Below, piece by piece: positions 10,640 through 52,440 of a DNA stretch of 64,000 nucleotides. A program made the position numbers and the translations under genes. The notes below the pieces were generated by a model. That model worked only from the letters and a program-made list of their open reading frames with translations. It was not told where the DNA came from and did no database searches. This DNA is from Lysinibacillus irui (GTDB taxonomy: Bacteria > Bacillota > Bacilli > Bacillales_A > Planococcaceae). Location: positions 2,101,501 to 2,165,500 of the forward strand of contig NZ_CP113527.1 of the NCBI RefSeq assembly GCF_028877475.1. The letters run 5' to 3'. Each line of letters starts with the position of its first letter. Positions within the stretch are counted from its first letter, which is position 1.

Positions 10640-11060
10640 GAGGAAGAGTCCAGGAAAAGTGATGGATCTCCTTTAAGTGATGAGATAAGTGTTCAAAAAA
10701 GTGAAGGATCCGCTCCAAACAATAAGGGAAGCGCTCAAAAAAGAGAGGAACCCGCTCCAAGTGATGAGAAAAGCGCTCGATAATGTAAGGACCCCGCTCC
10801 AAACGATGAGAAAAGCGCTCAAAAAAGTAAGGAACCCGCTCCAAATGATGAGAAAATCGCTCAAAAAAGTAAGGGACCCGCTCCAAATGATGGGAGAAGC
10901 GCTCGATAAAGTAAGGAACCCGCTCCAAACGATGAGAAAAGCGCTCGATAAAGTAAGGAACCGCTCCAAACGATGAGAGAAGCGCTCGATAAAGTAAGGG
11001 ACCCGCTCCAAATGATGAGAAAAGCGCTCAAAAAAGAGAAGCTCCCGTTTCAAGCGGTGC
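10640..11060. repeat. Array A: 42-bp tandem units built from two 21-bp halves
   Basis: About eight good copies follow some decayed ones. Each unit starts with CCGCTCC, then AAA-YGATGAGARAAG, then CGCTC and a second spacer such as AAAAAAGTAAGGAAC. The two halves are both 21 bp and both begin with CGCTC, so the core recurs every 21 bp. One unit (near 10920-10961) is 41 bp and breaks any reading frame. The array begins about 60 bp after the Usp terminator and fills the intergenic space. It has the same strand sense as array B and the opposite to C, D and E. Confidence 0.9.
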
Positions 11061-11266
11061 GAGAATTAGCGGCTATTTATAATAATGTTTGAAAAAATCA
11101 ACTCGTTAGTTAGTCTTGAGGTGATTATTTTTTTGGATATTTATGTTAAAATTAATTTTAAGTAAATCATCGAATTCCCCTTTATGCTATGTTGATATGT
11201 ATCATCGACAAGCGGTGTTTCCTTATTGAGCTAGCTGCGTATTTTGGTAGAAAAGAGTGATGTGGA

Positions 11267-11704
11267 ATGACTAAAGATAAAAAACAATCTAAGAAAAGAG
11301 GTAGTAAAGTCATATACGGTACGACGCCTGAAGAACGATTTAAAGAAGTACACGGAATGACAATAGAGGAATGGCAAGCAAAAGAAGTAGAAATGTTTAA
11401 AGCTAAAACAGGTATGAGTTCCGACGAATGGTATAGACAACAGGTTAATTCTTCAACACCAATTGATTATTTAATAAAAAGTAATGGCGGTGTTTCTCAG
11501 GATGATATCGAACTGGTGCGAGATTTACAAGAGTTGGGATTAAACGATAGCGTTATAAATGTATTGTTAGATTATGTAAAAATTGTTAATAGAATTGGTT
11601 TTATTCACCCGTTAGTAAGAGAAATGGGGGAATGTTGGCTCAAAAAAAATATCGTAACTATGGAAAGTGCAATAGCTTTTGTCAGAGAAGAGTGGGATAA
11701 ATAA
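11267..11704 (+). CDS. Hypothetical protein with DnaB/DnaD-like C-terminal domain
   Basis: 145 residues. The N-terminus is lysine-rich (MTKDKKQSKKRGSK), followed by two short GMT-EEW/GMS-DEW repeats (HGMTIEEWQAKE and TGMSSDEWYRQQ). The C-terminal 60 residues (ELGLNDSVINVLLDYVKIVN ... ECWLKKNIVTMESAIAFVREEW) resemble the C-terminal domain shared by the Gram-positive replication initiation proteins DnaB and DnaD (DnaB_2 type). It is too short to be either protein. The ribosome binding site is weak (GATGTGGA). It lies in the cassette between arrays A and B. Confidence 0.65.
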   Translation: MTKDKKQSKKRGSKVIYGTTPEERFKEVHGMTIEEWQAKEVEMFKAKTGMSSDEWYRQQVNSSTPIDYLIKSNGGVSQDDIELVRDLQELGLNDSVINVLLDYVKIVNRIGFIHPLVREMGECWLKKNIVTMESAIAFVREEWDK

Positions 11705-11783
11705 GGTTCGCGGACCCTTATTAAACTAATGGTGCAAAATTGTCCACCTATAGTTTTTATAATAAAAATATAAGGAGAGCTAA

Positions 11784-12077
11784 ATGGATTATTTCTTCAT
11801 AATTCTAATGGGTTTTTTTATCGTTATTGCAAATATTATTGGGTTTATCTCATACAGAAAAAAGAAGAATCTCTATTTTTCTGCTTTTACAATACTACTA
11901 CTAGCAATCTTTTTTGGTACGCTCGGTGGAACATTAGCAATAATAATTATTCGAGATCCTTTCGCGCTGTTTTATGGCATGCAACTTGGGTATTATTTAA
12001 TGATAAATAGTGCTATCGTTTTTATTATTGCCATTTTAGCAACTGTTGTAAAAAAATATAACAGCAAAAACATTTGA
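11784..12077 (+). CDS. Hypothetical small membrane protein
   Basis: 97 residues with three membrane helices (about 2-24, 31-57 and 68-92), separated by the short basic loop YRKKKN and a loop containing RDPFALFYG. A good AAGGAG ribosome binding site is seven bases before the ATG. I do not recognise a family. Strongly AT-rich, like its two cassette neighbours. Confidence 0.65.
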   Translation: MDYFFIILMGFFIVIANIIGFISYRKKKNLYFSAFTILLLAIFFGTLGGTLAIIIIRDPFALFYGMQLGYYLMINSAIVFIIAILATVVKKYNSKNI

Positions 12078-12135
12078 TTCGCTACTTTACTTTAAAAAGA
12101 GTTTTGCGAAATGATATGTTAATGAAAAAAGAGGG

Positions 12136-12711
12136 ATGACCATATTCATTTTATTTGGATTATTCATTTCATTTATTACGATTATTTTATTTCTGATGTT
12201 ATGTGCGAACATAATGATTTCTACCATTACAAAGAAAGCTTTTCCTAAAAAAATGCTCATTGCAACATTGTTAGGCATTGTTCTGACATCTTCAATCTTT
12301 GTATATAAAATGTACTTTTTTTCATTCAGTAATATTGATAGAGAATTTATTCAAAAAGGACCTGGACCTGTAACATCCCCTACAGAAAAGTATGATGCTA
12401 ATGCTTATTACGAACCATATGGTGGAGCTGCAGGTGGTGTAAATGTATGGGTTGAAATTACAAATAATATGGAGAAAAGTAAGGTCAAAACAGTTTATTA
12501 TAGTGATGCTAAGAGTAATTTTGCGATGGAATGGCTGGATGAGGATACGCTGTACATAGTAAATGATGACCCCAGCTATCCAAATTCAAATAGAAGCATC
12601 CAATTAATAATTGATAAAGAGATTTATCATGAAAATGGATTGGCTTGTAAAAGTTTGTTAATGAAAGATGAATATGAAACTTGCTATCAAAACTTCAGGA
12701 AAGACCCTTGA
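12136..12711 (+). CDS. Hypothetical membrane-anchored protein, DUF5412-like
   Basis: 191 residues. Two hydrophobic helices lie at about residues 2-28 and 37-58, followed by an extracytoplasmic domain containing SPTEKYDANAYYEPYGGAAGGVNV and a cysteine pair near the C-terminus (LACKSLL and YETCYQNF). The GGAAGGV patch in front of a beta strand is what I recall of DUF5412 proteins; this is a tentative call. The ATG at 12136 sits directly against its GAGGG, so the exact start is uncertain. Confidence 0.6.
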   Translation: MTIFILFGLFISFITIILFLMLCANIMISTITKKAFPKKMLIATLLGIVLTSSIFVYKMYFFSFSNIDREFIQKGPGPVTSPTEKYDANAYYEPYGGAAGGVNVWVEITNNMEKSKVKTVYYSDAKSNFAMEWLDEDTLYIVNDDPSYPNSNRSIQLIIDKEIYHENGLACKSLLMKDEYETCYQNFRKDP

Positions 12712-12889
12712 TTCTCAGTGTTGTAGGGTGGTTTTGCATTACCTATACTTAAATCAAAAAATAATTCAATTTTGAACTTTTTTCAAAGTGGAGTTTTTGT
12801 GTTTGCTATAAATTATTTTTTAATATTAGGTATTCATTTAAAGAGATGAGAACGTATGGCAATGTGTGAAAACAGCTCAATAAGTATAG

Positions 12890-13200
12890 TACCCGCTCCA
12901 AACGAGGAGTTAAGCGCTCAAAAAAGAGAAGCCTCCGCTCCAAACGATGATAGAAGCGCTCGAAAAAGAGAAGAACCCGCTCCAAACAATGCGAGAAGCG
13001 CTCAAAAAAGTAAGGAACCCGCTCCAAATGATGGGAAAAGCGCTCAATAAAGTAAGGAACCCGCTCCAAACGATGATAGAAGCGCTCGAAAAAGAGAAGA
13101 ACCCGCTCTTAAATGAGAAGCCCCCGCTCATAAAAGAGTTATCCCCCCTCAAACCAATAAGGCAATCGCTCAAAAAAACTAAAACCCGCTCCAAAATGTA
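12890..13200. repeat. Array B: 42/21-bp units closely related to array A
   Basis: Five 42-bp units with CCGCTCC and GCGCTC cores are followed by single 21-bp and 22-bp units and decaying copies. Individual units match array A at about 40 of 42 positions; for example the unit with AAATGATGGGAAAAG here against AAATGATGGGAGAAG in A. Same strand orientation as A. Arrays A and B bracket the three-gene cassette 11267-12711. Confidence 0.88.
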
Positions 13201-13247
13201 AGAAGCAATCCCCACAAAAACAAATCGTTCCATCCTATCCTATACAT

Positions 13248-13299
13248 GCAACTGATTAGTTGCTTCTAATTGACCTGCAACCAAATAGTTGCTTATAAT
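13248..13299 (+). promoter_or_regulatory. Promoter with two ArsR-type operator palindromes
   Basis: TTGACC (13270-13275) and TATAAT (13294-13299) are 18 bp apart. Two 16-bp inverted repeats, GCAACTGATTAGTTGC (13248-13263) and GCAACCAAATAGTTGC (13277-13292), flank and fill the promoter; their centres are 29 bp apart. The second lies between -35 and -10, ideal for repression. The start codon of the ArsR gene is seven bases past the -10 box. Confidence 0.75.
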
Positions 13300-13305
13300 C
13301 GATGT

Positions 13306-13584
13306 ATGAATTGGGATAAAGACACTATTTTTAAAGCACTTGGGGATTCGACACGGAGACTTATATTAGACGAACTAGCCGAACGTGACGAGATGACGTT
13401 GTATGAATTGACGGTTCGCCTTCTCATGAAGTATGAACTTTCTATTTCGAGACAGGGGATTGCCAAACATCTTTCAGTGTTAGAAAATGCAGGACTCGTC
13501 ACATCACAACGTAAGGGAAAATATCGAGTGATGATCTTCAATAAAGAACCACTTCAAGATTTGCTGAAAGGATGGGTAGAGTAA
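13306..13584 (+). CDS. ArsR-family winged-helix repressor
   Basis: 92 residues beginning MNWDKDTIFKALGDSTRRL, where ALGDSTRR is the classic ArsR signature. The recognition region is ISRQGIAKHLSVLENAGLVTSQRKGKYRV with the wing after it. No cysteine or histidine metal-binding set is visible, so this is the non-metal kind often paired with glyoxalase-fold or SRPBCC proteins. The frame is open upstream to 13270, but the ATG at 13306 coincides with the predicted transcription start, which implies a leaderless message. The VOC gene follows 50 bp later. Confidence 0.85.
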   Translation: MNWDKDTIFKALGDSTRRLILDELAERDEMTLYELTVRLLMKYELSISRQGIAKHLSVLENAGLVTSQRKGKYRVMIFNKEPLQDLLKGWVE

Positions 13585-13634
13585 AGTAAGAGACGGCACT
13601 GGCACTACACCACAAAGACAAGGAGGAAAATATA

Positions 13635-14018
13635 TTGAATATCATAGTAAACAGTATATTTGTACAAGATCAGGCGAAGGCACTGGCATTTTATACGGAG
13701 AAGCTAGGGTTTGTAAAAAAGGAGGATGTTCCTGTAGGTAAATATAGATGGTTAACGCTTGTTGCGCCTAATGATCAAGAGGGTCCGGAGCTTTTGCTCG
13801 AACCAGATGAGCACCCTGCAGCAAAAGATTATCAAAAGAGGATTTTCGCAGAAGGGATTCCCGCAACGATGTTTGGTGTTGCAGATATAGAAAAAGAGTA
13901 CGCGAGTTTGCTGGAGAAGGATGTAAAGTTTACTATTGCACCGACCAAAACAGGGGATGTCACAATAGCAGTTTTCGACGACACTTGTGGGAATCTTATA
14001 CAGATTATACAAAGATAG
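13635..14018 (+). CDS. VOC family (glyoxalase/bleomycin resistance-like) protein
   Basis: 127 residues starting at a TTG with an AGGAGG eight bases upstream. The fold shows the usual two halves: NSIFVQDQAKALAFYTEKLG at the start, and DVTIAVFDDTCGNLIQIIQ at the end with the terminal metal-ligand-like DTCGN-x-IQ. It follows the ArsR gene and most likely shares its promoter, so the repressor probably senses the compound this protein handles. Possible roles are dioxygenase, isomerase or binding protein for an antibiotic or electrophile. Confidence 0.85.
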   Translation: MNIIVNSIFVQDQAKALAFYTEKLGFVKKEDVPVGKYRWLTLVAPNDQEGPELLLEPDEHPAAKDYQKRIFAEGIPATMFGVADIEKEYASLLEKDVKFTIAPTKTGDVTIAVFDDTCGNLIQIIQR

Positions 14019-14028
14019 TCCAAAATAG

Positions 14029-14067
14029 AAGCGTGTTTTGATTGTATTTCATCAAAACACGCTTTTC
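14029..14067. terminator. Bidirectional intrinsic terminator
   Basis: AAGCGTGTTTTGAT (14029-14042) and ATCAAAACACGCTT (14051-14064) form a 14-bp perfect stem with TTTT after it. It ends the ArsR-VOC unit and lies just beyond the stop of the opposing lipoprotein gene. Confidence 0.85.
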
Positions 14068-14070
14068 CTG

Positions 14071-14223
14071 TTAGTCATCAAGTACCAAAACATTTTGATG
14101 TTCTTTTGGCTCTGCATTGACGGTCTGTTCTTTGGCTTCGGCTTCCTCACTAGGCGGAGCTTGTTCCGCGGAGCAGGCAGCCAGGAAAAGTAGCACAATA
14201 CTTAGTAACAGTAATTTCTGCAT
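14071..14223 (-). CDS. Small lipoprotein, 50 residues
   Basis: The peptide begins MQKLLLLSIVLLFLAACSAE, a complete lipoprotein signal with lipobox LAAC. The mature part is acidic and low in complexity (many E, A, P) and ends HQNVLVLDD. A GGAGGTTTGTCAC ribosome binding region precedes the ATG at 14223. No family is recognised. It lies downstream of the copper amine oxidase-like gene on the same strand. Confidence 0.7.
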   Translation of the reverse strand: MQKLLLLSIVLLFLAACSAEQAPPSEEAEAKEQTVNAEPKEHQNVLVLDD

Positions 14224-14301
14224 GTGACAAACCTCCATCGAGCAAACGTTGATAGGAATAGTTTGCGCAAATTCATACAGAATATGTTAAGCATAAAAAA
14301 T

Positions 14302-15147
14302 TTAAGCTACTGTATTACTAATAACGGTACTAAAGCCATTTTCTGATGCATTGTTGATAAGCTGTTGGATCGAATTCACGGCTTGCTCTGAGAAGATATA
14401 CCAGCTATTTTCGGAAACATCATGTAGAAGTACCTTAGGATAGCCTTCTAGTAGTTCTTCTGGGAAAGGACCGTTTAATGAATAAATATCAAATTGCTTG
14501 ATACTCTTATTGTCATGAGTCATAAAATCATACTGGCCAAGCTTGTAGTAAGACCCAGGTTCATCTAAATTAATGTGCCAATAATATTCCTTTGGAGCTT
14601 CTACTTTGTCGCCTTTCTTTTCTTGGAAAATTTTATAAATAGCGTTGTGATAGGCATTGCCCTTTATCTCTTGAATGATACCACCCATTGTCATATGGTA
14701 TTCATATTGTAGGGCCTTTATTTTTTCATTTTCAATCAGCAATGGTTTAGTGGCAATAGACACTGTTCCTTGCTTGTAATCGACTTGGCTGCCAAATGTT
14801 TCGGCAATAAAGCGGAGCGGTACATAGGTACGGTTATTTTTAATGTAAGGTTTTACATCTAATTGCTCCTTTTTGCCATTTTTAATTACTGTTTGATTGT
14901 TGACATTTAAAGAAACCGTTGTTTGATTCATCGATAGGGTAATTTTCGAATCTTTCCAATCAACTTGGGCACCAAGGTTTTCGCTGATTACACGTAATGG
15001 TACCATTGTTCGATTGTTTTTTTGCTCGGGTGCTGTATCCGTTTTTACTACAACATCGTCAATTTTAATTTGAGTCGTGGCAGCATCAGCCGGTGAAGCC
15101 ATCCATAACATTGATGTTATACAAAGACCTGTGAAAATTTTCTTCAT
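14302..15147 (-). CDS. Secreted protein with copper amine oxidase N-terminal-like domains
   Basis: 281 residues with a Sec signal peptide (MKKIFTGLCITSMLWMASPADA). Two tandem CuAO-N/stalk repeats follow: NRTMVPLRVISENLGAQVDW at about 43-62 and NRTYVPLRFIAETFGSQVDY at about 104-123. The remaining 150 residues show no domain I know. These repeats are wall-associated or carbohydrate-binding modules in Bacillales; no copper oxidase activity is implied. AGGAGG lies upstream of the ATG. Confidence 0.85.
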   Translation of the reverse strand: MKKIFTGLCITSMLWMASPADAATTQIKIDDVVVKTDTAPEQKNNRTMVPLRVISENLGAQVDWKDSKITLSMNQTTVSLNVNNQTVIKNGKKEQLDVKPYIKNNRTYVPLRFIAETFGSQVDYKQGTVSIATKPLLIENEKIKALQYEYHMTMGGIIQEIKGNAYHNAIYKIFQEKKGDKVEAPKEYYWHINLDEPGSYYKLGQYDFMTHDNKSIKQFDIYSLNGPFPEELLEGYPKVLLHDVSENSWYIFSEQAVNSIQQLINNASENGFSTVISNTVA

Positions 15148-15294
15148 GGTAATAAACCTCCTAATATATAAAAAATTGCCACATATACAATTTTACCATA
15201 ATATTCTTCTGTTTTTAATTAAATTTTTGTATAAATACCGTAGCGTATAATCCGATTATGTTATCTAATACTAAAACTGAAAGGAGGTTATTCT

Positions 15295-15459
15295 GTGAAA
15301 TTTTTAACTTGGGGCATTGTAGGTGTGGCGCTTTTTGCAGCCATGAAAGGCTATGGGAAATCAAACCAAGGACAGAAGGAAAGCTTTCAGCAAACGACAA
15401 CACCTGTTCAATTAGTTGCAAATGCTAATCCACTGACAGCCAATACGCCGAAACAATAA
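15295..15459 (+). CDS. Small hypothetical protein, 54 residues
   Basis: A GTG at 15295 has an excellent AAAGGAGG at the proper distance. The peptide has a short hydrophobic N-terminus (KFLTWGIVGVALFAAMKGYG) and a polar Gln/Thr-rich tail. It may be a single-pass membrane or exported peptide. A 11-bp hairpin follows it. Confidence 0.6.
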   Translation: MKFLTWGIVGVALFAAMKGYGKSNQGQKESFQQTTTPVQLVANANPLTANTPKQ

Positions 15460-15471
15460 CATGAAATATAG

Positions 15472-15499
15472 GCTTATAGATTGATTTTAATCTATAAGC
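15472..15499 (+). terminator. Hairpin, weak terminator
   Basis: GCTTATAGATT (15472-15482) and AATCTATAAGC (15489-15499) form a perfect 11-bp stem with a 6-base loop; the following T-run is interrupted. Confidence 0.5.
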
Positions 15500-15561
15500 T
15501 TACTGAATTTTACATAAATATCCTATCATTGGTATAATAGATTGCGAGAAAATGGGTGTAG

Positions 15562-15755
15562 ATGCTTCATTTTAAAAATTATCATGATGACGATTTAGAA
15601 GTAATTCTGCAATTATTTTACGAATTTGTACATAATGTCAACGCTCAAGATTATTCAGAGGCACAATTGGGGGCTTGAGCACCTTCAGAAATGCAGCAAC
15701 AAAGTTTATTGGTCAGAAGTTGAAGACGTTCGGACAAGAATATATCGAGCCTTAG
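15562..15755 (+). pseudogene. GNAT acetyltransferase remnant, interrupted by TGA
   Basis: The frame starts MLHFKNYHDDDLEVILQLFY and continues EFVHNVNAQDYSEAQLGA, the usual N-terminus of a small GNAT acetyltransferase. The next codon is TGA where the family has Trp (AWAPSEM); the same frame goes on APSEMQQQSLLVRS before a second stop. Another frame ends FGQEYIEP. The acetyl-CoA-binding half of the protein is absent. Confidence 0.65.
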
Positions 15756-15871
15756 AAATAAATAAAGGTGGAAATTGTCTACCGCAACAAAATGGTTAAA
15801 TCTTATTTTGATTTGCATCTGATAAAGGTAACTTAAAAATTAGCAATGAATAAGGAAGCAAAAGACCCGAA

Positions 15872-16332
15872 TTAGTTCAGGAATCGATGAATGGTTAAAA
15901 TCGCTTGGAAATGCAACCCTTCATGAAAGATAGTGCGTAGCAGTACTTGTTCAATGGTTTGCATGCCCATGTCAATAGGGGGAAATTCTTCAGCCAATCG
16001 ATCACCATATCGTTCCTTGACTTGGTCAGGCTGCCGAGCCAAGTACTTTTTAATTCCTCAAGGGTTGGCGTTTCTTTGTCAAAATGATTCGGCGATGTGC
16101 CAAAACCAAACCATTTCATGAAAACGTTTAGCTCCGTGTCCTTTTCTTTTGTTAATGCTTCTATCCATAAATATTGATCGAGATAGAGATGGCCCAAATT
16201 CCAGCGAATATTATTATGAAAACCAGTTGGAATGATATTTGCCTCTTCTTCAGACACATGCTCTAGGAAGTGGAGCAACTCGCTACGGTAATGAGCTAAT
16301 TGCTCAAATAAATTTTCTTGACGTTGATTTAA
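15872..16332 (-). pseudogene. DinB-like protein, start lost and frameshifted
   Basis: Upstream of the reading frame, an AAGGAGGG is followed by TTA at the place of the start codon, and the frame reads LNQRQENLFEQLAHYRSELL before the conserved FHNNIRWNLGHLYLDQYLW of DinB proteins. Near 16050 the reading switches by one base within a run of five A: the other frame continues YLARQPDQVKERYGDRLAEE and EQVLLRTIFHEGLHFQAILT, the usual DinB C-terminus with its His. One missing A explains the shift. Sequencing error is possible for the shift, less so for the start. Confidence 0.7.
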
Positions 16333-16383
16333 GTTAAACCCTCCTTTTTAGTATGTATTGGCTAACATTCTTCATTTTCCTGC

Positions 16384-16413: not shown

Positions 16414-16419
16414 TTCAAA

Positions 16420-24406: not shown

Positions 24407-25093
24407 ATGAAAAAAACACTCACTGCAATTTGTGCAACATTTCTATTAGCAGCTCCAATTCAAATAGCTTCTGCTGCTACTAATACAACAGAAGGGAATT
24501 CCGTAAAGCAGTCAACGAACTGTAATGTTTATTATTATAAATGGTCAAACAATCATAAGTGGAACATTCAATTACCACAGGCATCTACACCATCTAAAGA
24601 GACGCCAACTACAAATGATAATACACAACCGACACCAAATAATAATCAACCATCACAAAATGAAAAACCAGCAACAACACCATCTACAACAACACCATCT
24701 ACAACAACTTCAGATGTAAACGCGTTTGAACAAGAAGTAGTTAAATTAACAAATGCAGAACGTACAAAAGCAGGTTTATCACCACTTCAAACTGATGCAA
24801 AATTAATGGCTGCAGCTCGTGAAAAATCACAAGATATGCAAAGTAAAAACTATTTCTCACATACAAGTCCAACATTCGGTTCACCATTTGATCGCATGAA
24901 AGCTTTAGGTATCACTTACAAAGCTGCTGGTGAGAACATTGCCCAAGGTCAACGTTCACCACAAGAGGTGGTACAAGCATGGATGGACTCACCAGGTCAC
25001 CGTGCGAATATCTTAAACGGTAACTTTACACATATCGGGGTAGGTTACGTGAAATCAGGTAACTACTGGACACAACAATTTATCCAAAAATAA
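24407..25093 (+). CDS. Secreted CAP-domain (SCP/YkwD-like) protein
   Basis: 228 residues with a Sec signal peptide (MKKTLTAICATFLLAAPIQI ASA, cut near residue 24). A low-complexity Thr/Pro/Asn linker (about 55-105) separates a short N-terminal segment (NCNVYYYKWSNNHKW) from the CAP domain (about 108-228), with conserved HTSPTFGSPFDRMKALG, GENIAQGQ, VVQAWMDSPGHRANIL and HIGVGYV. These proteins are common in spore formers and are wall- or spore-associated; activity is unclear. The N-terminal segment lacks a LysM or SLH anchor. Confidence 0.9.
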   Translation: MKKTLTAICATFLLAAPIQIASAATNTTEGNSVKQSTNCNVYYYKWSNNHKWNIQLPQASTPSKETPTTNDNTQPTPNNNQPSQNEKPATTPSTTTPSTTTSDVNAFEQEVVKLTNAERTKAGLSPLQTDAKLMAAAREKSQDMQSKNYFSHTSPTFGSPFDRMKALGITYKAAGENIAQGQRSPQEVVQAWMDSPGHRANILNGNFTHIGVGYVKSGNYWTQQFIQK

Positions 25094-25111
25094 TCAACCG
25101 TTTAAAGAAAG

Positions 25112-25152
25112 ATGCTCTATAAGTCTGCCGAGGCTTATAGAGCATTTTTTTT
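25112..25152 (+). terminator. Intrinsic terminator after CAP gene
   Basis: ATGCTCTATAAG and CTTATAGAGCAT form a 12-bp stem followed by TTTTTTT. Confidence 0.88.
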
Positions 25153-25205: not shown

Positions 25206-25643
25206 AGAACGGATTTCTTCAAATAGGAGCGGGTATCAAGGAAAAAAGAGCGGTATTCCTGCAAAAAGGAGCGGGTAGCAATGTAAAAGGAGCACCTTTC
25301 ATCAAAATAGGAGCGGGTAGCAAAGTAAAAGGAGCGCCTATCCTCTAAATAGGAGCGGGTATTAGGTTAATAAGAGCACTTTTCGACAAAAAAGGAGCGG
25401 GTAGCAATGTAAAAGGAGCGCCTATCCTCTAAATAGGAGCGGGTATTAGGTTAATAAGAGCGCTTTTCGACCAAATAGGAGCGGGTAGCAAAATAAAAGG
25501 AGCGCCTATCCTCTAAATAGGAGCGGGAACCAAGGTAATCGAGCACCTTTCAACTAAATAGGAGCTTATACTAACGTATTAAGAGCGCTTTTCGTCCAAA
25601 TAGGAGCGTATATCAAGGAAATATGCGCGCTTCTCTTGACACA
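25206..25643. repeat. Array C: about twenty 21-bp units alternating in two types
   Basis: Type 1 units start GGAGCGGGTA and often end AATA or TAAAA; type 2 units start RGAGCGCYTWTC and end AAATA. They alternate almost perfectly, giving a 42-bp super-period; nearly every unit is exactly 21 bp. The reverse complement carries CCCGCTCC and AAGCGCTC at the spacing seen in arrays A and B, but the spacer bases differ. Each unit has TAA or TAG in the frame where array A is open, so the array does not code. It starts about 55 bp after the CAP terminator. Confidence 0.9.
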
Positions 25644-40481: not shown

Positions 40482-40519
40482 TATGTGCGTAAGCACGTTA
40501 ATCAAAGGAGGAAATGAAA

Positions 40520-41773
40520 GTGGCTGAAATTAAAGTCCCTGAATTAGCAGAATCGATTACAGAAGGTAGTATCGCACAGTGGGTTAAAAAAGTGGGCGAT
40601 CGCGTTGAAAAAGGTGAATTCATCGTTGAACTTGAAACAGATAAAGTAAACGCTGAAATCATTTCTGAAGAAGCAGGTGTATTAACACAAATTTTAGCTG
40701 AAGAAGGCGATACTGTACTAGTTGGTCAAGTTATCGCAGTAGTAGAAGCAGGCGAAGGCGCAGCACCTGCACCAGCAGCGGCTCCAGCTGAAGCAGCTCC
40801 AGCTCCAGCAGCACCACAAGCAGCTCCTGCACCAGCGGCAGCAGCTCCAGTAGTAGAAGAAACTTCTGGTGAGCGTGTTATCGCATCTCCAGCAGCACGT
40901 CGTCTTGCACGTGAAAAAGGTATTGACCTTGCAGCAGTATCTCCAGTAGATCCACAAGGTCGCGTACGTGTACAAGATGTAGCAGCACACGGAACTGCAC
41001 CAGCGGCAGCAGTAGCACCTACACCAGTAGTAACTACAGGTGGCCCAGTTGTATTCACACCAGCAGCTAATTCTGATCGTGTAACAATTGAAAAAATGAG
41101 CCGTCGTCGTCAAACAATTGCAAAACGTTTATTAGAAGTTAAACAATCAACAGCTATGTTAACAACATTCAACGAAATTGACATGACAAACATCATGGCA
41201 CTTCGTAAACGTAAACAAGAAGAGTTTGTGAAAGCAAACGACATCAAACTTGGTTTCATGTCATTCTTCACAAAAGCTGTTGTTGCAGCACTGAAAAAAT
41301 ACCCATACGTAAACGCTCAAATCGTTGGCGATGAAATTCATTTAAATAACTTCTTCGATATCGGTATCGCTGTATCAACTGAAGAAGGTTTAGTAGTACC
41401 AGTTGTACGTGATGCAAACAGCAAAAACTTCGCTGAAATCGAAAAAGATATTGCTAACTTAGCGACAAAAGCTCGTGATAAAAAATTAGGCTTAAATGAT
41501 ATGGCTGGTGGATCATTCACAATCACAAACGGTGGTGTATTCGGTTCATTAATGTCAACACCAATTATGAACGGTACTCAAGCTGGTATTTTAGGTATGC
41601 ATTCTATTGTTAACCGTCCAGTTGCTGTAAATGGGGAAGTTCAAATCCGTCCAATGATGTATGTAGCACTTTCTTACGATCACCGTATCATCGATGGAAA
41701 AGATTCAGTAGGATTCTTAAAAACAGTTAAAGAATTAATTGAAAACCCAGAAGATTTATTATTAAATTCATAA
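40520..41773 (+). CDS. odhB: Dihydrolipoyl succinyltransferase, E2 of 2-oxoglutarate dehydrogenase
   Basis: 417 residues if started at the GTG at 40520 (reads [12 protein letters not shown], as in Bacillus OdhB), which has AAAGGAGG at eight bases; the ATG at 40514 is only two bases from that site. The lipoyl domain has ETDKVNAEI with the lipoylated Lys near 42. An Ala/Pro-rich linker (about 78-115), the E3-binding domain ([17 protein letters not shown]) and the catalytic domain ending in [11 protein letters not shown] with the active His follow. Confidence 0.96.
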
Positions 41774-42849: not shown

Positions 42850-43113
42850 CAGTGAGGTAGAGGCGCGGTATTTATTAGTTCATTGTTGAGTACAAGCAAG
42901 CGAAGACGCAATGAAGAAGGAAATATCGCCGAAGTATAAAAGGAGCTCGTACTTTTATGCTGGGTCTGCAGTGAATAAGTGCAGGACTGTCCTAGTAAAT
43001 TGATTTCCAGGTTTACTAGGTTGTGCTATCTCGGAAATATGGAAATAATAGTGAGGATTTGGGCAACTGTCATAAAAGGTAAGACCTAAGTTCAATAAAC
43101 TTAGGTCTTTTTT
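42850..43113 (+). ncRNA. Lysine riboswitch (L-box) with terminator
   Basis: The aptamer shows the class landmarks in order: GAGGTAGAGGCGCGG at the start, then ATCGCCGAAG, then GCTGGGTCTGCAG with its pairing partner, and TTGTGCTATCTCGG at the end. P1 forms between GAGGTAG (42854-42860) and CTATCTC (43026-43032). The expression platform is a terminator, AAGACCTAAG-x-CTTAGGTCTTTTTT (43081-43113). High lysine should stop transcription of the ABC importer that follows 40 bp later. Confidence 0.9.
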
Positions 43114-46160: not shown

Positions 46161-47226
46161 AATCTCGCTGATAGCCTTGAGCACCCGCTACATCTTGCAG
46201 CTGTTGTTTCTCTTGTTCGGTTGCCGTATGCAAAGCAAAGACATCCTTAATTGCTGTTTGTAATTCATGCTGTGTTTCTTTAAATTTTGAAACTTGCTGT
46301 TCAAAAGATGGACTTGTAAAACGATCATGTGTCTTTGATAACCGTTCCTCTAGTCGGGCATAGTGCTGATCCATATGCATCGATAGCATCATTGCCAGTT
46401 GGTTTTTCCATAGCGGAATTAGCGTAACAATTGAGAACTCAATTTTTTCGGCTAACGTTTGATTAGCTTGTTGAATCATCCGTATCTGAGGAGCCGTTTG
46501 CAGGGCTACTTGCTGAGATACTTGTAAATCATAAATACGTTGGTCCAATCGTTCAATTTGCGCAGCAAAATCATTGAGCTGCTGAATAGCGAGCGGCTGT
46601 TTGCTTGCTTGGATACTCATTATTTGTGCTGGTAGCTCTACTTCAATAGCTTGTTGTTTTTTCATTTGACCTGCTGCAATGGCAGTAGCCAGTTCCTCAA
46701 AAAATCCTCGATTATGGTTATAAAGTGCTTCTAAGTTTTCCACATCTTTAATCAGCTGGAGCTGTGCACGTTCTAGTTGAACACCAATACGTTCTACCTG
46801 AATACTAATACGCTCAAATTCTGTTAACGTTTGCTTGACCGAGGGCTCTGTTTTACCAAACATTTTTTTGAAGAACGTTTGCTTCTTTGGCTCTAAAGCT
46901 GTTGGGTCTACTCGATCTAGTGTCTGCATTAAGGAATCAAGCATTTGCCCAATTTTAGTAACGTCCTTTTGCTTCACCTGTGCAAGCATTCGATCCGCAA
47001 ATTGAGATAAGGCTCGCTGCGAATCTTGCCCAAGAGATAGCAATGATTCAAAATCAGTTAAATCGATTTGACTGGCATATAGTAATGCACGACTTTGTGC
47101 AAGAGGCGATAGCGTTTCATATGTCGCCATCGCCTCATTTTGTGGAGTTGTTTCTAAGTAGGATTGGACTAGTGGAGAAAGTCCAGGTATGGTATTAAGT
47201 TGAAATGCGTGTTCATTAGCCGTCAT
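46159..47226 (-). CDS. Toxic anion resistance protein, TelA family
   Basis: 355 residues, predicted almost wholly helical. Landmarks are KVKQKD-like charged helices, TFFKKMFGKTEPSVKQTLTEF in order near residue 125, and QLQLIKDVENLEALYNHNRGFFEEL, as in TelA/YceH. It lacks membrane helices and lies at the membrane with partners in Bacillus. Its start overlaps the stop of the XpaC-like gene (ATGA at 47223-47226), so the pair is one operon. The link to tellurite resistance is by family name only. Confidence 0.87.
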   Translation of the reverse strand: MTANEHAFQLNTIPGLSPLVQSYLETTPQNEAMATYETLSPLAQSRALLYASQIDLTDFESLLSLGQDSQRALSQFADRMLAQVKQKDVTKIGQMLDSLMQTLDRVDPTALEPKKQTFFKKMFGKTEPSVKQTLTEFERISIQVERIGVQLERAQLQLIKDVENLEALYNHNRGFFEELATAIAAGQMKKQQAIEVELPAQIMSIQASKQPLAIQQLNDFAAQIERLDQRIYDLQVSQQVALQTAPQIRMIQQANQTLAEKIEFSIVTLIPLWKNQLAMMLSMHMDQHYARLEERLSKTHDRFTSPSFEQQVSKFKETQHELQTAIKDVFALHTATEQEKQQLQDVAGAQGYQRD

Positions 47227-47873
47227 TTATCATCGCCTCGCCAGTCCAATTGTTCTCTACGTCTTAAATTGGAGCGATTTGCGAACTCGATCTCCATTTG
47301 CAGATGATCGATATCATTAGCAAGCGCATCCTTTAAATCAATTTGTATTGTATCATTTAAATCGGTAAGAGTTTCACGTGTTTTGGATAACGTCAATTGA
47401 ATTTCCTTATCCTTCACAGGCTGCCTTGAAAGCATTGTATATTTATCCGTTAATTCCACCGCAGAAGGTAAATGCGCATAGAAAAATGGTTCCACATTAT
47501 AAAACTTTCGCGGGTCTGTCTTCACAATTTTAACAATATTTTTTGAGATACGTGTCATCTCAAGAAGTTGTTTAAAAGCAGATACAGAACGGACACGTAA
47601 ATAGTTTTGACTTAATGTTTGAATATGCTTATTGGCTGTAGATAATTGTGTTTCAATATGCTTGAACTCTTCTTTTGTGATACCTGCTATTTGCATGACC
47701 TTCTTTTTTTGTCTATGTTTCAGCAACGTTGTACTCGTCGCATATGAACCCGCAAACAGTAAACCACCAAGGAAGAATCCAGGATTTGCCGCAATTGCTG
47801 CGATAGAAACAGTTGTAAGCGAAATAAGAAAGCTGGCACTATGTCTAGAGAAAAACTGTCCGACACTAAGCAT
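47223..47873 (-). CDS. XpaC-like protein (5-bromo-4-chloroindolyl phosphate hydrolysis family)
   Basis: 216 residues from the ATG at 47873, which follows AAGGAGGATGAAAC; the frame is open to 47930. Two membrane helices (about 14-50) lead into a helical cytoplasmic part with EEFKHIETQLSTANKHIQTL and DPRKFYNVEPFFYAHLPSAV in order, the landmark of XpaC/YceG-like proteins. Translationally coupled to telA, as in other Bacillales. Confidence 0.85.
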   Translation of the reverse strand: MLSVGQFFSRHSASFLISLTTVSIAAIAANPGFFLGGLLFAGSYATSTTLLKHRQKKKVMQIAGITKEEFKHIETQLSTANKHIQTLSQNYLRVRSVSAFKQLLEMTRISKNIVKIVKTDPRKFYNVEPFFYAHLPSAVELTDKYTMLSRQPVKDKEIQLTLSKTRETLTDLNDTIQIDLKDALANDIDHLQMEIEFANRSNLRRREQLDWRGDDK

Positions 47874-48029
47874 TGTTTCATCCTCCTTGCTTTTCAATAT
47901 GTCTATCTTCTTATACGAAATAATCGACATAAAGTTTCATTGAAAAATAAACCCTTACATAAATTTTACTGCTAATTGTTAACTTTCTCAATGATAATAC
48001 ATAGAATAAGTGAGATGTTTCGATGGAAA

Positions 48030-48260
48030 AATAGCGGGAGACCGCTTTTCGATAAAATGTGTGTGAGTCGATTTTCATCAAAGAGACCGATGAGCCGTTG
48101 GTTACTATGTTTTTTACTTGAATGAGTGGTTCTATACGGTATATGATCGGTTTTGGTAGTAGTGAGAGCGGTTCTATACGAAATATGATCGGTTTCGGCA
48201 GTAATGAGAGCGGTTCTATACGATATATGACCGGTTTTGCCATTAGTGTGAGCATTTTTA
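48030..48260. repeat. Array E: 42/21-bp units with AGCGGTT and ATCGGTT cores
   Basis: Three good 42-bp units (from about 48121) each split into a half beginning GAGAGCGGTTCTATACG and a half beginning ATGATCGGTTT; the CGGTT is at positions 6-10 of both 21-bp halves. More decayed 21-bp pieces precede it (48030-48120). The opposite strand reads AACCGCTCTC, matching the CCGCTC core of arrays A-C. It lies between the divergent xpaC-like and small-peptide genes. Confidence 0.78.
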
Positions 48261-48485
48261 ATCAACCCAAGAATACATCTAACAAGGTGTGGCTTTTTCT
48301 TTTGTCATTCTAAATTGATTATAGAATGTACACCGAATTATCGTCTTTTCCCTTAGCATTTGGGCAAATTGCCTAGATGTTTTTTAAAATAAAAATTTAA
48401 AAATTCTAAAAAATTAAAGGGATTTATAAAATAATGCAGAATATAACAATTGTAAACCAAATTATGAAATATATGGAGGATGGAA

Positions 48486-48656
48486 ATGATGAAAAAGAAA
48501 AAATCGATGTTGTCTATTTTAGGTGTTCTATTTTTAAGCTTAGGATTAGCTGGTGGTGCAAGCGCGAGTGCTAGCAAACCACATTATGAAAATGACGGCG
48601 GTGGAGGTTCATCAAAGCCACCAAGTTGTGTCAAAGCACCTTGCCCAATGCAATAA
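48486..48656 (+). CDS. Small secreted peptide precursor, 56 residues
   Basis: AGGATGGAAATGATG precedes a basic start (MMKKKKS) and hydrophobic signal (LSILGVLFLSLGLAGGASAS), cleaved near ASA. The mature part is about 27 residues with a Gly run and two Cys: ENDGGGGSSKPPSCVKAPCP. One disulfide is possible. It could be a signalling or antimicrobial peptide, but no processing or export genes are nearby. A terminator follows. Confidence 0.62.
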   Translation: MMKKKKSMLSILGVLFLSLGLAGGASASASKPHYENDGGGGSSKPPSCVKAPCPMQ

Positions 48657-48668
48657 TTAATGAAGATA

Positions 48669-48702
48669 GAGCATCCATTTAATCGTGGATGCTCATTTTT
48701 TA
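48669..48702 (+). terminator. Intrinsic terminator after small peptide gene
   Basis: GAGCATCCA and TGGATGCTC form a 9-bp stem with an 8-base loop, followed by ATTTTTT. Confidence 0.85.
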
Positions 48703-49114
48703 TGACAAAATTTTATGAAATACAATGATTTCCACTCATATCATGATTCATGTAAAGTAAGCTATAAAATAATGAAGCGATTTTCTGTTATATATGGTGA
48801 GGGGAAATACAAAGTGCCATATAATGGAAGAATTCTTTCCGACAGACTTCATCAAAAATAAGAAGATGTATAATGAAACATCTCCCCAAATTTGAGGACT
48901 TCACCAGCCTCATGCGTAATTCTCGCTGCAGAGGTAATTGGTAGCTGAATTTTGACCGCAAGATACAATGTAGCAGATATACAAAATAAAAAGACTGGGG
49001 ACTTTACCCCAATCTTAAGAAACTTGCCCCCGGAAACGTATTCAAGATAACATATTCAAACTATCAGTAAAGGTGCCATAAACCTTGATAAAATGTTAAA
49101 AGGCAAGAGCCAGA
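48703..49114. other. Intergenic region with no convincing gene
   Basis: About 410 bp. A hairpin at 48991-49016 (AAGACTGGGG/CCCCAATCTT, one mismatch) has a T-rich tail on the minus strand and probably ends the acylphosphatase transcript. A second hairpin, GAGCCAGAC/GTCTGACTC, lies at about 49107-49132. A short minus-strand open stretch (48850-48980) is not convincing as a gene. Confidence 0.5.
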
Positions 49115-49396
49115 CTAAACAATGTCTGACTCCATTCGTATATAGCCTTTTAAATCATCGTACATTTCTAATGAAAAGGAATTGGAATCAGCTTGTGGAC
49201 TGACGCCTTTTTGGACAAAAAGGAGGAATTCATTGAGTGCTTTTTCAGAGCCTTCCACTTCGACCTCAATTTGCTCAGCATTATTTAGTCGACAGTATCC
49301 TTTTAATCCTAATTCAATAGCCTTTTGTTTGATAAAGAAACGATAACCTGTGCCGTATACATCACCAAAAAATTTGATACTTGCTCGTTTGTTCAC
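49115..49396 (-). CDS. acyP: Acylphosphatase
   Basis: 93 residues. The substrate loop FFGDVYGTGYRFFIKQKAIE carries the catalytic Arg (family form GxVQGVGFR), and YCRLNNAEQIEVEVEG holds the catalytic Asn (family form GWVRNxxDG, here with Leu-Asn-Asn). The C-terminus is longer than usual by a few residues and lacks the common F-x-I/V-x-Y end. It hydrolyses acyl phosphates. The divergence from consensus suggests altered activity, though both key residues are there. Confidence 0.82.
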   Translation of the reverse strand: MNKRASIKFFGDVYGTGYRFFIKQKAIELGLKGYCRLNNAEQIEVEVEGSEKALNEFLLFVQKGVSPQADSNSFSLEMYDDLKGYIRMESDIV

Positions 49397-49438
49397 GGGA
49401 ATACCTCCTACTAGTGAAGAGGGGAATACCTCTTCTTT

Positions 49439-51166
49439 TTAATGCATAACACGTTCTTTTTCTAAATAGGCAATCAAGTTATTAATATAATAGAGAACAT
49501 GCTTAGATGCTTCATCCACTTCTTTGAGGTGGACATCTGCTTTTTCGATATTACCTGCTTTATGAGCTTCTGCGGCAAGCTTTGCTGATTCATGGACACG
49601 TAAATGGTAGCCATCTAAATCATGATAGTCCTGAAGATGGCCGAAACGTTCTACTGTACGAGGTGCTGTATACCATTTGCCAAGTCGACAGTCTCTATGA
49701 GAAGAAACATCATTTGGTTCAACACTTTCAAGACCTAAAAACATGTTATAAATACGCCACTTCCATAAAATGTGATCTGCTTTCGATAATTGAAGAAGGG
49801 CAATAGAGGAAAGCTGTACATTATTGTTGGCAATAATATCATTACGGAAACGATTAATTTCTTTCCCTAATAGATGAATATCACTAGATGTATTGTGACT
49901 ATAATCACGAATATCTTCCTGCAAGCTTGAAATTTCAATCATTCGTGCGGAGACTTCATCAATCGCTGCCGCTTGTTGCTGAGAAATGGCTGCTGTATTT
50001 GTTACATCTACATTAATACCCTCAATTGCATGCACTATAGCATTTAAGAGTGGTAACGAATCTTTTGCCTCAACGGTTGCTTCTTTAATAATCGCTGTCG
50101 TTTCGGTAATTGAGTTGGACACATCATTAGAGTAACTCTTTAAATGATGTACGTTTGTCGATACTTCACTAAGTGCAGAGACTGTATTTTCCGCAAGCTT
50201 TCGTACTTCTTGTGCAACGACCGCAAAGCCTTTGCCATGTTCACCTGCTCGCGCGGCTTCTATGGAGGCATTGAGTGCCAGTAGGTTTGTTTGATCGGCG
50301 ATTTGATTAATTAATGTTACAACCTGTTCAATATCATTTACCCGTTTTTGCAATTCTGAAAATGATTCGACAATGGACGTAAAGGTTTCTTCCGTTTTAA
50401 ATATTTCCGCTAAGGCATGCTCAATGGCATTTTTTCCTTTCGTTGCATGATCAACCGATTCAGTCGTTTTCTCAGATATATGGGAAGACATACGTGCTAC
50501 CTCATTAATAGAAGCGGCAATCTGTTCTGTTGCGGCAGTGGAAGATTGAATTTCTTCATTTTGCTTATCTAAGCTAAACACTAAATCTTTCATGTACATA
50601 ATTTTTGCATTGACATCCATTAACGAGGATACTTCGCCTACTACGTTTTCAACGATGCGTTCTGTTAATACTTCCACTAGCAATTCTTGATCGACATTGA
50701 CAGCGGCTTGGAAAGATTTCATGTATTGAAAAGCTTTATTCGGCTTAATTCCGAAATTATGTAAAATATAGGTAGTGATATAGAAGGCAAATTGATTGAA
50801 TACAACAATTAATTTACCAGGCTCGTATTGATGTTGACGAAATAGATTGAAAAATTTTACCGTTTCATCGACGTAATCATCGTCACGCGTTGCTAAGAAA
50901 AACTGTGTTAAGTATTTATTGATATTTTCTTCACTAATGGTTAATTGAGAGGTAGGGGAAATCTCGCTTAAATAATGATGAAAAATGGCATTCATAGAAG
51001 GGGTAATATCTTTTAGCTTTTGGTAGAGTGTTTTTAAATGCTCCTCGTCCTGTGAATTGAAGTGATTAAATGCCAATGTTTGATGAAATCGGCCTGTTGC
51101 ATGTAAATCTGTACCACGTTGAAGTAGCTGTTCTAGCTCTGCTTTCGGTCGAATACTTGAAAACAT
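49439..51166 (-). CDS. Globin-coupled chemoreceptor (HemAT-like) with C-terminal CZB domain
   Basis: 575 residues from the ATG at 51166, which follows GGGAGG; the frame is open to 51211. The N-terminal 170 residues are a protoglobin domain; the candidate proximal heme His is in [14 protein letters not shown]. The methyl-accepting signalling domain (about 190-440) has the hairpin tip [20 protein letters not shown]. The last 100 residues are a CZB zinc-binding domain, with [23 protein letters not shown] and [10 protein letters not shown] supplying its His and Cys ligands. No membrane helix. It should sense oxygen or redox state for taxis. Confidence 0.87.
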
Positions 51167-51290
51167 AAAAATACCTCCCAAAAAGTATGTATAATAAGGT
51201 AATAATAGCATAATTCAGGTGGTTTTAATAGACATTTCAGATGTGTTTGATAAAATGAAAATATCTAATGACAGCAAGGAATGGGCAAAT

Positions 51291-51575
51291 ATGTATACAA
51301 TTATTTACATGAAAGCGGACTATGAGCCTTGGTGGAAATTTGAAGGTTGGGAAGCTTTTATTCAAACAGAAGATACATTTGAAACAAAGGAGCTCTTTGA
51401 ACGAGCTTTACAGCAAAAATTAGCACAATTTCGTTCCTCATATGACAATGAAGTGGCGAAGGAAGGGCAGTACTGGGCGTTTTGGTCTGAGGATGAAAGC
51501 TTTTATTGTGAGGCTTGTGATGATGATGCACAAGTATATCATGGGATAATTGCGTGTAAAATAGAAGAGAAGTAA
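51291..51575 (+). CDS. DUF1033 family protein
   Basis: 94 residues from the ATG at 51291, preceded by AAGGAATGGG; the frame is open to 51219 but that part is not family-like. MYTIIYMKADYEPWWKFEGW is the diagnostic opening of DUF1033, and the middle YWAFWSEDESFYCEACDDDA is also conserved. Small acidic cytoplasmic protein of unknown role. Confidence 0.75.
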   Translation: MYTIIYMKADYEPWWKFEGWEAFIQTEDTFETKELFERALQQKLAQFRSSYDNEVAKEGQYWAFWSEDESFYCEACDDDAQVYHGIIACKIEEK

Positions 51576-51679
51576 AATAATTTTGAAATAAAATAAAAAA
51601 AGATTTTTTCTTTATTTGACAAAATTATGAATGGCGTTTATACTTAAGTTAACAATTTAATTGCTTCACCGGAAACATG

Positions 51680-51738
51680 AATTCACATATTACAAAAAGT
51701 GATCGCGTTAGTTCGGTACTCTTTGTAATATGTGAATT
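51680..51738 (+). promoter_or_regulatory. Long hairpin in the cold-shock gene leader
   Basis: AATTCACATATTACAAA (51680-51696) and TTTGTAATATGTGAATT (51722-51738) are perfectly complementary over 17 bp around a 25-base loop, followed by TTTTTC. It looks like an intrinsic terminator placed about 60 bp before the csp start, so it may end the DUF1033 transcript or attenuate csp. Confidence 0.65.
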
Positions 51739-51797
51739 TTTTCAATCGCTGAAGAAATTACATATTGTTCACTTTTATTTTTTGGAGGTTTTCTTAA

Positions 51798-51998
51798 ATG
51801 AAACAAGGTACAGTAAAATGGTTTAACTCAGAAAAAGGTTTTGGATTCATCGAAGTTGAAGGTGAAAACGACGTATTCGTACACTTCTCAGCTATCCAAG
51901 GCGAAGGTTTCAAAACTCTTGACGAAGGTCAAAAAGTGGAATTCGAAGTTGTAGATGGCAACCGCGGACCACAAGCTGCTAACGTAACTAAACTTTAA
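51798..51998 (+). CDS. Cold shock protein, CspA family
   Basis: 66 residues. The single OB-fold carries both RNA-binding motifs, KGFGFIEV (RNP1) and VFVHFSAI (RNP2), in the standard order after [20 protein letters not shown] lies at a good distance. It has a long leader with a stable hairpin, as is typical of cold-regulated csp genes. Binds single-stranded RNA/DNA as a chaperone. Confidence 0.96.
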
Positions 51999-52032
51999 TT
52001 CTCCATAATTAAAATTACTTTCGTTAAACCCA

Positions 52033-52063
52033 AGACATCCTATGCAAATAGGATGTCTTTTTT
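52033..52063 (+). terminator. Intrinsic terminator after csp
   Basis: AGACATCCTA and TAGGATGTCT form a 10-bp stem with a 6-base loop and a T-run. Confidence 0.9.
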
Positions 52064-52111
52064 GTATCATTTGAAAGTTTATGGATTACAAATCTAAATT
52101 TAGGTTAAATA

Positions 52112-52440
52112 TAAAGTAGGGGTAGATAGCTTCGGCAAAGTAGAGGATAGCATTGTAAAAGTGAAGGATAGCAGGGTCAAAGTAGCGGATAGCTCAGCCA
52201 AAGTGGAGGATAGCTCCCCGAAAGTAGCGGATAGCCTCTCCAAAGTAGCGGATAGCACCTCAAAAGTAGCGGATAGCCTTGCCAAAGTGAAGGATAGCTT
52301 CCCAAAAGTGGCGGATAGCACAGCCGAAGTAGAGGATAGCTCCCCCGAAAGTAGCGGATAACTCAGCCGAAATGAAGGATAAAGCTACCAAACTGAAGGG
52401 TAATGTCCCAAAAACAGAGGGATAACCCCTCAAAATGAAA
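52112..52440. repeat. Array D: about fifteen 21-bp units with 15 conserved and 6 variable bases
   Basis: The unit is AAAGTRGMGGATAGC followed by six bases that differ in every copy. Most copies are exactly 21 bp; one (near 52325-52346) is 22 bp and shifts the frame, and the last few decay. The core GTAGCGGATAGC matches GGAGCGGGTAGC of array C at 10 of 12 positions, in the same orientation. It starts about 50 bp after the csp terminator and ends about 50 bp before the next gene. An open frame of KVADS-type heptads is a by-product of the 21-bp period. Confidence 0.9.

Follow-up and report, generated by a model that had tools for sequence, protein, structure and literature searches.

Intergenic 21-bp repeat arrays of Lysinibacillus irui: members of a described class and possible helically phased platforms for a DNA-binding factor

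Tandem repeats that keep the size of their unit while its sequence varies are an open puzzle of bacterial genomics. Five intergenic arrays with a 21-bp period, here called A to E, pose this puzzle in one stretch of the Lysinibacillus irui chromosome (the window: 64,000 nucleotides, positions 2,101,501-2,165,500 of contig C1; C1 has 4,447,526 bp and the genome 4.70 Mb in two contigs). What holds one repeat length and a short core word at loci whose remaining sequence differs? Across the genome, the core of such arrays lies mostly on the lagging strand, no array was found between divergent genes, AT content shows a 10.5-bp sub-period, and the core differs coherently from that of a sister species. 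We give an even chance to the explanation that the arrays are helically phased platforms read by a putative factor of drifting specificity. The five arrays, and the hairpins that a terminator scanner called beside two of them, are as follows.

10672..11050, minus strand: array A, about 17 units of 21 bp in 42-bp pairs (GAGCGG.../GAGCGC...), core on the minus, here the lagging, strand; flanked by a Usp gene, 10109-10528 (+), and by 11267-11704 (+).
12875..13200, minus strand: array B, of the same class as array A, with some units in common (one identical 21-mer); flanked by 12136-12711 (+, DUF5412) and an open frame, 13270-13584 (+).
25105..25152, plus strand: intrinsic-terminator-like hairpin between the CAP-domain gene and array C.
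25221..25640, plus strand: array C, about 19 units, such as GAGCGGGTAGCAAAGTAAAAG / GAGCGCCTATCCTCTAAATAG, core on the leading strand (a polarity exception); flanked 5' by the terminator of the CAP-domain gene and 3' by a GerA gene.
48085..48253, plus strand: array D, short and degenerate, in 42-bp pairs such as GAGCGGTTCTATACGATATAT / GATCGGTTTTGGCAGTAGTGA, core on the leading strand.
52032..52059, plus strand: intrinsic-terminator-like hairpin upstream of array E.
52125..52440, plus strand: array E, a sub-class with AGTAGCGGATAGC in 21-bp units, core on the leading strand; past the terminator that follows the cspA thermoregulator region.

An earlier note on this DNA had pointed out the five arrays, and direct reading and measurement confirmed that they lie where it had put them. 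Tandem Repeats Finder and lag identity bore out a 21-bp period in all of them and a pairing to 42 bp in four, the periods being 42 bp (with 21 bp) in A, B, C and D and 21/63 bp in E. Apart from one 20-bp step each in A and B and one 62-bp step in C, the cores of these three arrays follow one another at 21 bp or a multiple of it. The common core that the note had proposed, which is on the minus strand in A and B and on the plus strand in C, D and E, also stood, but its words for D and E had to be exchanged: the array at 48.0 kb carries AGCGGTT and that at 52.1 kb TAGCGGATAGC. Crude open reading frame (ORF) calls are consistent with its placement of all five arrays between genes. Three arrays had been set just past a terminator, which the scanner supported for C and E; at A, a hairpin with a long loop and a run of T at ~10530-10585 was read by eye and not called by the scanner.

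Further copies, predicted in the note, were found in large numbers in the L. irui genome and in related genomes. The pattern AGCG-N17-AGCG-N17-AGCG has 335 matches in L. irui (153 forward, 182 reverse) compared to 6 for a reversed control, and a five-core pattern has 222 compared to 0; the arrays are abundant far beyond chance. An all-lag scan from 12 to 69 bp (lag identity of at least 56% over 126 bp) of an unselected 464 kb, window and terminus, gave 12 regions at lag 21, 16 at lag 42 and 8 at lag 63, some few of which are coding repeats, with one region each at 15, 41 and 69 and zero at every other lag. Scans of 400 kb of L. irui and 400 kb of a sister species (genome G127) placed the non-coding regions (7 of 9 and 4 of 5, the remaining two and one being taken as coding by eye) at lags 21 and 42 and their multiples; lags 41 and 62 came from one array, which has 20-bp steps. 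From 46 repeat regions of L. irui we dropped nine coding or low-complexity ones (by eye) and two of masked letters. The 35 arrays that were kept, of which those at 2086.7 and 2087.0 kb may be one, all held up as non-coding; for the arrays beyond the terminus block, the stretches had been picked for prior pattern matches.

The arrays fall into several classes. Class I, with a consensus of roughly TTWK-GAKCRS-N-T, has 697 heads, some of which are second matches within a unit (9/12-bp steps). A head-selecting expression returned GAGCGG 325 times, GAGCGC 131 times and GATCAC 130 times. Among 674 intervals, 596 are of 21 bp, 28 of 20 bp, 1 of 19 bp and 1 of 22 bp, and the remainder are multiples or within-unit steps; units that have lost a base far outnumber those that have gained one (28 compared to 1 of 674), whether through tolerance or through a higher rate of origin. 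Cores nearly all share one orientation within any array. When units were registered without selecting heads, the head columns varied less than the other columns in 25 of 28 class I arrays (0.243 vs 0.371). Of 479 distinct class I units just 2 recur from one array to another, in agreement with the note's view that spacers are alike inside an array, unlike between arrays and products of local expansion. Class II has the palindromic core CCGCGG, reads ATACCCGCGG on the leading strand and occurs at 551.9, 667.1, 731.4, 1846.9, 2071.9 and 2439.5 kb. Class E (GGATAGC/GGATAGAA type) occurs at 52.1 kb of the window and at 2086.7-2087.6 kb. GAGCGG had been taken as the hallmark of the whole repeat class, which does not hold, since relatives carry CGGCGATT and CGCGAGTATT at a 21-bp period and L. 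irui itself has two classes beyond the first. None of 70 matches of GAGCGGGT-N13-GAGCG lies on the second contig, C2 (251 kb), which suggests that class I, to which this pattern belongs, is chromosomal.

The strand of the core was then read against the direction of replication. The dnaA gene is at C1:337 on the plus strand, so C1 starts beside the origin. The cumulative GC skew of the terminus-block sequence peaks at C1:2,272,977, where a dif-like site matches 26 of 28 bases of the Bacillus subtilis dif consensus; the position of this site puts the window on the right arm, ~107-171 kb short of the terminus. Outside 2.07-2.38 Mb, limits that were fixed after the data were seen, all 22 arrays examined have a lagging-strand core. 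Four of the arrays outside the terminus lie between convergent genes, where gene direction cannot decide polarity, and all four follow replication. The array at 2772.6 kb, between lagging-strand genes, also follows replication, and array D does not. The 70 two-core matches are all minus up to 2.1146 Mb (39/39) and all plus from 2.1267 Mb (31/31); this single change of sign places their switch inside the window, ~150 kb before dif. Of 35 arrays, 34 have the leading strand richer in purines, and array D stands apart at 0.49. Around the terminus (C1:2.07-2.38 Mb) the polarity of the core breaks down and, save in array D, the purine-rich strand stays leading. A core that is mostly on the lagging strand points to a process or function tied to replication direction. 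Gene direction was tried as the cause and rejected: 23 of 25 co-directional arrays sit behind leading-strand genes, near the expectation from 70% (327/468) leading-strand ORFs, so this placement is no evidence alone.

The sites themselves are restricted. Of 34 arrays with known flanks, 25 lie between co-directional genes, 9 between convergent genes and 0 between divergent genes. In the terminus block 288 gaps are 60 bp or longer, 72 of them between divergent pairs, and the chance of 0/34 is ~0.75^34 = 6e-5, a value that rests on crude ORF calls and on a background from the terminus block alone. A crude script found a terminator-like site upstream of 16 of 32 arrays, a count that neither proves nor excludes a rule that arrays always stand past a terminator.

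As the note had supposed, the equality of 21 bp with two helical turns proved to be a meaningful quantity. The power of AT content at 10.5 bp averaged 0.225 over 51 arrays, compared to an expectation of 0.10 and to 0.107 in random non-coding 21-mers, and 15 of the 51 were individually significant (p<0.05). Power at 21 bp (0.116) had no clear excess and that at the fourth harmonic (0.121) a slight one. The 10.5-bp signal was high in class II (0.30-0.35) and class E (0.27-0.32) of L. irui, in the relative G166 (0.44) and in Sporosarcina (0.14-0.59), where the cores are unrelated; class II arrays of G127 had 0.16-0.27 and its array at 672 kb 0.07. Predicted RNA folding was close to that of shuffled sequence (over 28 arrays z averaged -1.0 and -1.2 and ranged from -4.9 to +2.4), and none of the three Rfam matches in the window overlaps arrays A to E. 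Neither RNA structure nor a known RNA family found support in these two results. Coding was disfavoured: 20-bp steps break the frame, the best-open frame and strand vary by array and the variation of columns is not codon-like. A plasmid origin found no support when array A was compared by blastn with a plasmid collection, which gave no match.

The genome of the sister species G127 provides a natural experiment, in which the same positions carry different core words and one class looks dead in one species and alive in the other. Its DnaA protein has 99.3% identity to that of L. irui, and 318 kb were aligned at 88.5% identity. Three class II arrays are at matching positions in both genomes. At the variable core base, L. 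irui has C in 27/29, 11/12 and 8/8 units (46/49) and G127 has T in 28/28, 10/10 and 9/9 units (47/47); the class II units of G127 are near-identical. The three T units of L. irui occupy the first, second or penultimate place of their arrays. Methylation-driven C-to-T change is tentatively disfavoured as the cause of the switch, since only one strand of the palindrome is altered and the edge units of L. irui keep T. Class II three-core runs were found in 17 of 32 genomes of the genus, and all-T runs made up 83/83 in G049, 65/65 in G127 and 83/102 in G170 and 0 in the other 14. Class I fares differently between the species. Opposite the L. irui arrays at 655.3, 691.5 and 783.3 kb, G127 has 190, 331 and 161 bp of remnants spaced roughly 21 bp, which, read by eye, look like decayed arrays; opposite the array at 660.9 kb it has only 15 bp, an absence. 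At C1:671948-672208 of G127 there is a 42-bp array of the GGATAGAA type, and the matching place in L. irui is 139 bp without an array.

The pattern is widespread in relatives, with other cores. A four-core pattern matched 90 of the 200 genomes sampled from the family and 122 of the 261 in an order sample, which overlaps the family sample and consists of that family alone; the reversed control also matches many of these relatives, because other 21-bp classes contain its word. Among the matches listed, nearly all arrays of G127 have the core CGCGAGTATT and the main class of G166 has TTYTAYCGGCGATTY. Polarity recurs in both: 7 of 7 arrays of the ATACTCGCG pattern are on the lagging strand in G127, with the terminus assumed half-way, and 23 of 25 listed main-class arrays (to 3.92 Mb) conform in G166, with dnaA at 746 kb, the terminus assumed opposite and two arrays of another class (GCGAA, 1451.8 and 1631.7 kb), with pattern matches on the other strand, left out of the 25. 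In a genome-collection scan at least 120 stretches had the pattern, many from other phyla and guessed to be coding, and a viral-contig scan gave 29 contigs. We analysed 17 Bacillales loci among the 80 matches listed, of which two had no repeat region and several had long stop-free frames over the repeat, so that coding is possible there. Repeats of 21 or 42 bp occur at the pattern in Sporosarcina, Lysinibacillus sphaericus OT4b.31, Oceanobacillus, Allobacillus, Ornithinibacillus and Evansella; at the Ureibacillus locus the three best lags include 81-103 and not 21. Twenty stretches of other genomes were drawn blind to known arrays (one was 1.9 kb long and one array-rich region was chosen by position). 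They gave lags of 42/84 (two), 41 (one), 35 (one) and coding-like 18/36, and in one genome 65, 75-76 and a mixture of 82/103/21, one each. The 41-bp array, in G036 of another genus (L210 14999-15630), consists of two TTTGCGR units, 20.5 bp per unit, and the 35-bp repeat, in G192 of the same genus (L194 8733-8943), is not a whole multiple of 21.

Are such arrays a new kind of repeat? An earlier survey by Subirana and Messeguer reportedly appeared in the Journal of Bacteriology in 2020. The same authors describe, in their later paper (Subirana and Messeguer 2021, PMC8161180), tandem repeats of 20-21 and 52 nucleotides in Bacillus and other bacteria, constant in size, variable in sequence, mostly non-coding, with several families per genome and a short signal particular to each species (in Bacillus weihaiensis, for instance, TCGCGG); they noted the two helix turns and suggested protein polymerisation or small RNA. 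The L. irui arrays agree on each point: the size is 20-21 bp whatever the sequence, the sequence differs between loci (2/479 shared units) and forms several families (classes I, II and E), the 35 arrays are not protein-coding, and the signal is different in other species, though L. irui has more than one. The claim of an undescribed repeat family therefore fell, on the very finding that the note had said would refute it, and its interpretation is supported in part. Replication polarity, placement at gene ends and an orthologous core switch are absent from what is available of PMC8161180, whose main text has "leading strand", "terminator", "convergent" and "Lysinibacillus" 0 times. Judged by titles and the openings of abstracts, none of the papers listed in searches of an open-licence library (for two of the searches, 15 of 1,359 and 10 of 19 papers) dealt with how these repeats are oriented to replication or with a switch of their core between orthologous arrays. 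What the present analysis adds to the described class is thus polarity, placement, the 10.5-bp periodicity, the core switch and class decay.

Other known repeats match less well. The REP/BIME elements of enterobacteria are palindromic hairpins present in many copies behind gene ends; the L. irui arrays share the site and the copy number, but their cores point one way and no consistent hairpin was seen in them. In plasmid iterons, direct repeats are spaced by about two turns of the helix and lie on a single face of it, a spacing and facing that the arrays share, though the arrays are chromosomal and occupy many loci. Chi, KOPS and SRS are short polar words linked to replication direction and dispersed singly. 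KOPS/SRS polarity switches at dif, whereas the polarity of the arrays fails around the terminus. The long identical repeats and unique spacers of CRISPR are not seen either: the units have 21 bp and spacers recur within an array. The Borg repeats described in PMC9879509 resemble the arrays in their many loci, independent origin and strand-biased (A-rich) composition, and differ in having variable unit lengths, perfect units and sequences that are virtually all unique per genome.

We therefore come back to what could hold the core and the period together. The arrays would act at the level of DNA, as putative binding platforms in which one core word per two helical turns aligns the sites within an array along a single helical face. 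A putative sequence-specific factor would recognise the core and possibly assemble or wrap along the array. Each array would expand and homogenise locally, by slippage or unequal exchange, while recognition holds the core; local growth and homogenisation would make the spacers private to each array. If the preference of the factor shifted, the arrays of a class would be rewritten genome-wide to a new core, a kind of dialect, and if the factor were lost its class would decay. Sites behind the 3' ends of genes would leave promoters undisturbed. The period, the contrast between core and spacer, the placement, the polarity, the 10.5-bp sub-period, the core switch and the decay are observed; from them we infer binding by a protein and the direction of cause and effect. 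A bolder version is possible but rather doubtful: each class would be the site set of one fast-evolving, sequence-specific putative chromosome factor whose action depends on replication direction, so that a change of specificity rewrites the class and loss kills it.

Several observations weigh against the platform explanation. Only 5 of 13 arrays within 2.07-2.38 Mb have the core on the lagging strand, with C, D and E the exceptions in the window, so any directional function is not strict. Among the three-core matches listed by strand (to 2.98 Mb), one at C1:414412-414457, on the right arm, is on the plus strand and opposes the usual polarity, though it may be chance, and the GCGAGTA array of G127 at 1193.7 kb points the opposite way to its other arrays. 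The 20-bp steps are uncompensated by 22-bp steps (28 vs 1), so strict long-range phase is not kept, and periods of 35, 65 and 75-76 bp exist in relatives. The combined Fisher value for the 10.5-bp signal (chi-square 234 on 102 df) overstates the significance, since related arrays within one class are not independent; the signal is weak in four of five Bacillaceae arrays (0.05-0.13 in Oceanobacillus, Allobacillus and Ornithinibacillus, compared to 0.28 in Evansella). A wedge model of curvature gave mean end-to-end/contour ratios of 0.803 for arrays, 0.875 for permuted units and 0.916 for shuffled sequence; 16 of 26 arrays were more curved and 10 straighter than the mean of their permuted-unit controls, and the rise in curvature is modest and inconsistent. 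The dialect is not absolute either, as G170 mixes cores, G198 and G200 have scattered T units and G033 has a ATACACGCG variant. Finally, the loss of class I in G127 shows that this class is dispensable.

The main rival is a selfish or neutral satellite, in which core-primed slippage, nicking or unequal exchange creates arrays and keeps them uniform wherever they do no harm, behind gene ends and not at promoters; the core would mark the amplifier, perhaps a nickase or recombinase, and the cell would gain nothing. We regard this as conceivable, though improbable. Much of the evidence suits it: the sites are tolerant ones, with 0/34 arrays in the divergent gaps that make up 72/288 of the terminus block, spacers are private to arrays, the near-identical class II units of G127 are a sign of recent expansion, class I decays, and a purine-rich leading strand in 34/35 arrays could be replication mutation bias. 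Plain slippage gives no reason for a core more conserved than the spacers of its own array (25/28), for one core and period at unrelated loci, or for core letters that are coherent across loci; a core-specific amplifying enzyme would account for all three. The arrays might instead be topology sites, with phased GC/AT alternation favouring the wrapping of gyrase or a different topoisomerase behind genes, by analogy with the role proposed for BIMEs in enterobacteria. The 10.5-bp alternation and the 3'-end placement are in line with this, but neither a sharp core nor its coherent switch in the sister species is predicted and the curvature signal is weak, which makes the proposal unlikely. Polarity, placement, sub-helical periodicity, core switching and decay together favour DNA-level recognition over a satellite or topology sites.

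It is quite unlikely that the arrays work as RNA, whether as sense or antisense small RNAs or as pyrimidine-rich antisense Rho entry sites that counter readthrough. A transcript of the lagging strand would be pyrimidine-rich (34/35), single arrays fold with z of -4.9 and -4.2, and the 52-nucleotide repeats of Bacillus coagulans are transcribed according to PMC8625621. Against this stand mean folding near that of shuffled sequence, the absence of Rfam overlap with the window arrays, terminator-like sites before 16/32 arrays, and whole-turn periods and a 10.5-bp signal that are properties of DNA. Chi clusters for AddAB recombination are very unlikely, although AGCGG is the Chi word of B. subtilis AddAB and GAGCGG makes up 325/697 class I heads. 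Under the usual rule, Chi would be oriented to guard the origin-side arm of a broken fork, and the lagging-strand core (22/22 outside the terminus) is opposite. AGCGG is moreover not in every unit, being absent from the heads GAGCGC (131) and GATCAC (130) and from the cores of G127 and G166. AGCGG, Chi and AddAB are named together in PMC4824097. Short heptad-repeat peptides, with 21 bp as seven codons, are scarcely credible: many arrays have long stop-free frames, but frame-shifting 20-bp steps, an inconsistent best-open frame and strand, and columns without a codon pattern speak against them. Coding, RNA structure and Chi are thus all disfavoured.

If the bolder version of the platform explanation is right, the arrays would form a species dialect system akin to the coevolution of centromeric satellites and their proteins, but bacterial. 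A protein that reads the core would be a new type of chromosome-organising or replication-linked factor, and an amplifying enzyme that reads it would amount to bacterial satellite drive. The contrast between the sister species makes the question testable: the reader of the core should differ in step with the core letter.

Some further features lie in the window. The Rfam matches above gathering score are a T-box leader (62475-62693), a lysine riboswitch (42850-43036) and the cspA thermoregulator (51668-52062). The CAP-domain gene just 5' of array C has internal 21- and 15-bp tandem repeats at 24618-24708, and repeats within genes such as this one should be kept apart from the intergenic class. 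A 15/21-bp repeat at 40760-40850, within the open frame 40514-41773, looks like an Ala/Pro-rich linker.

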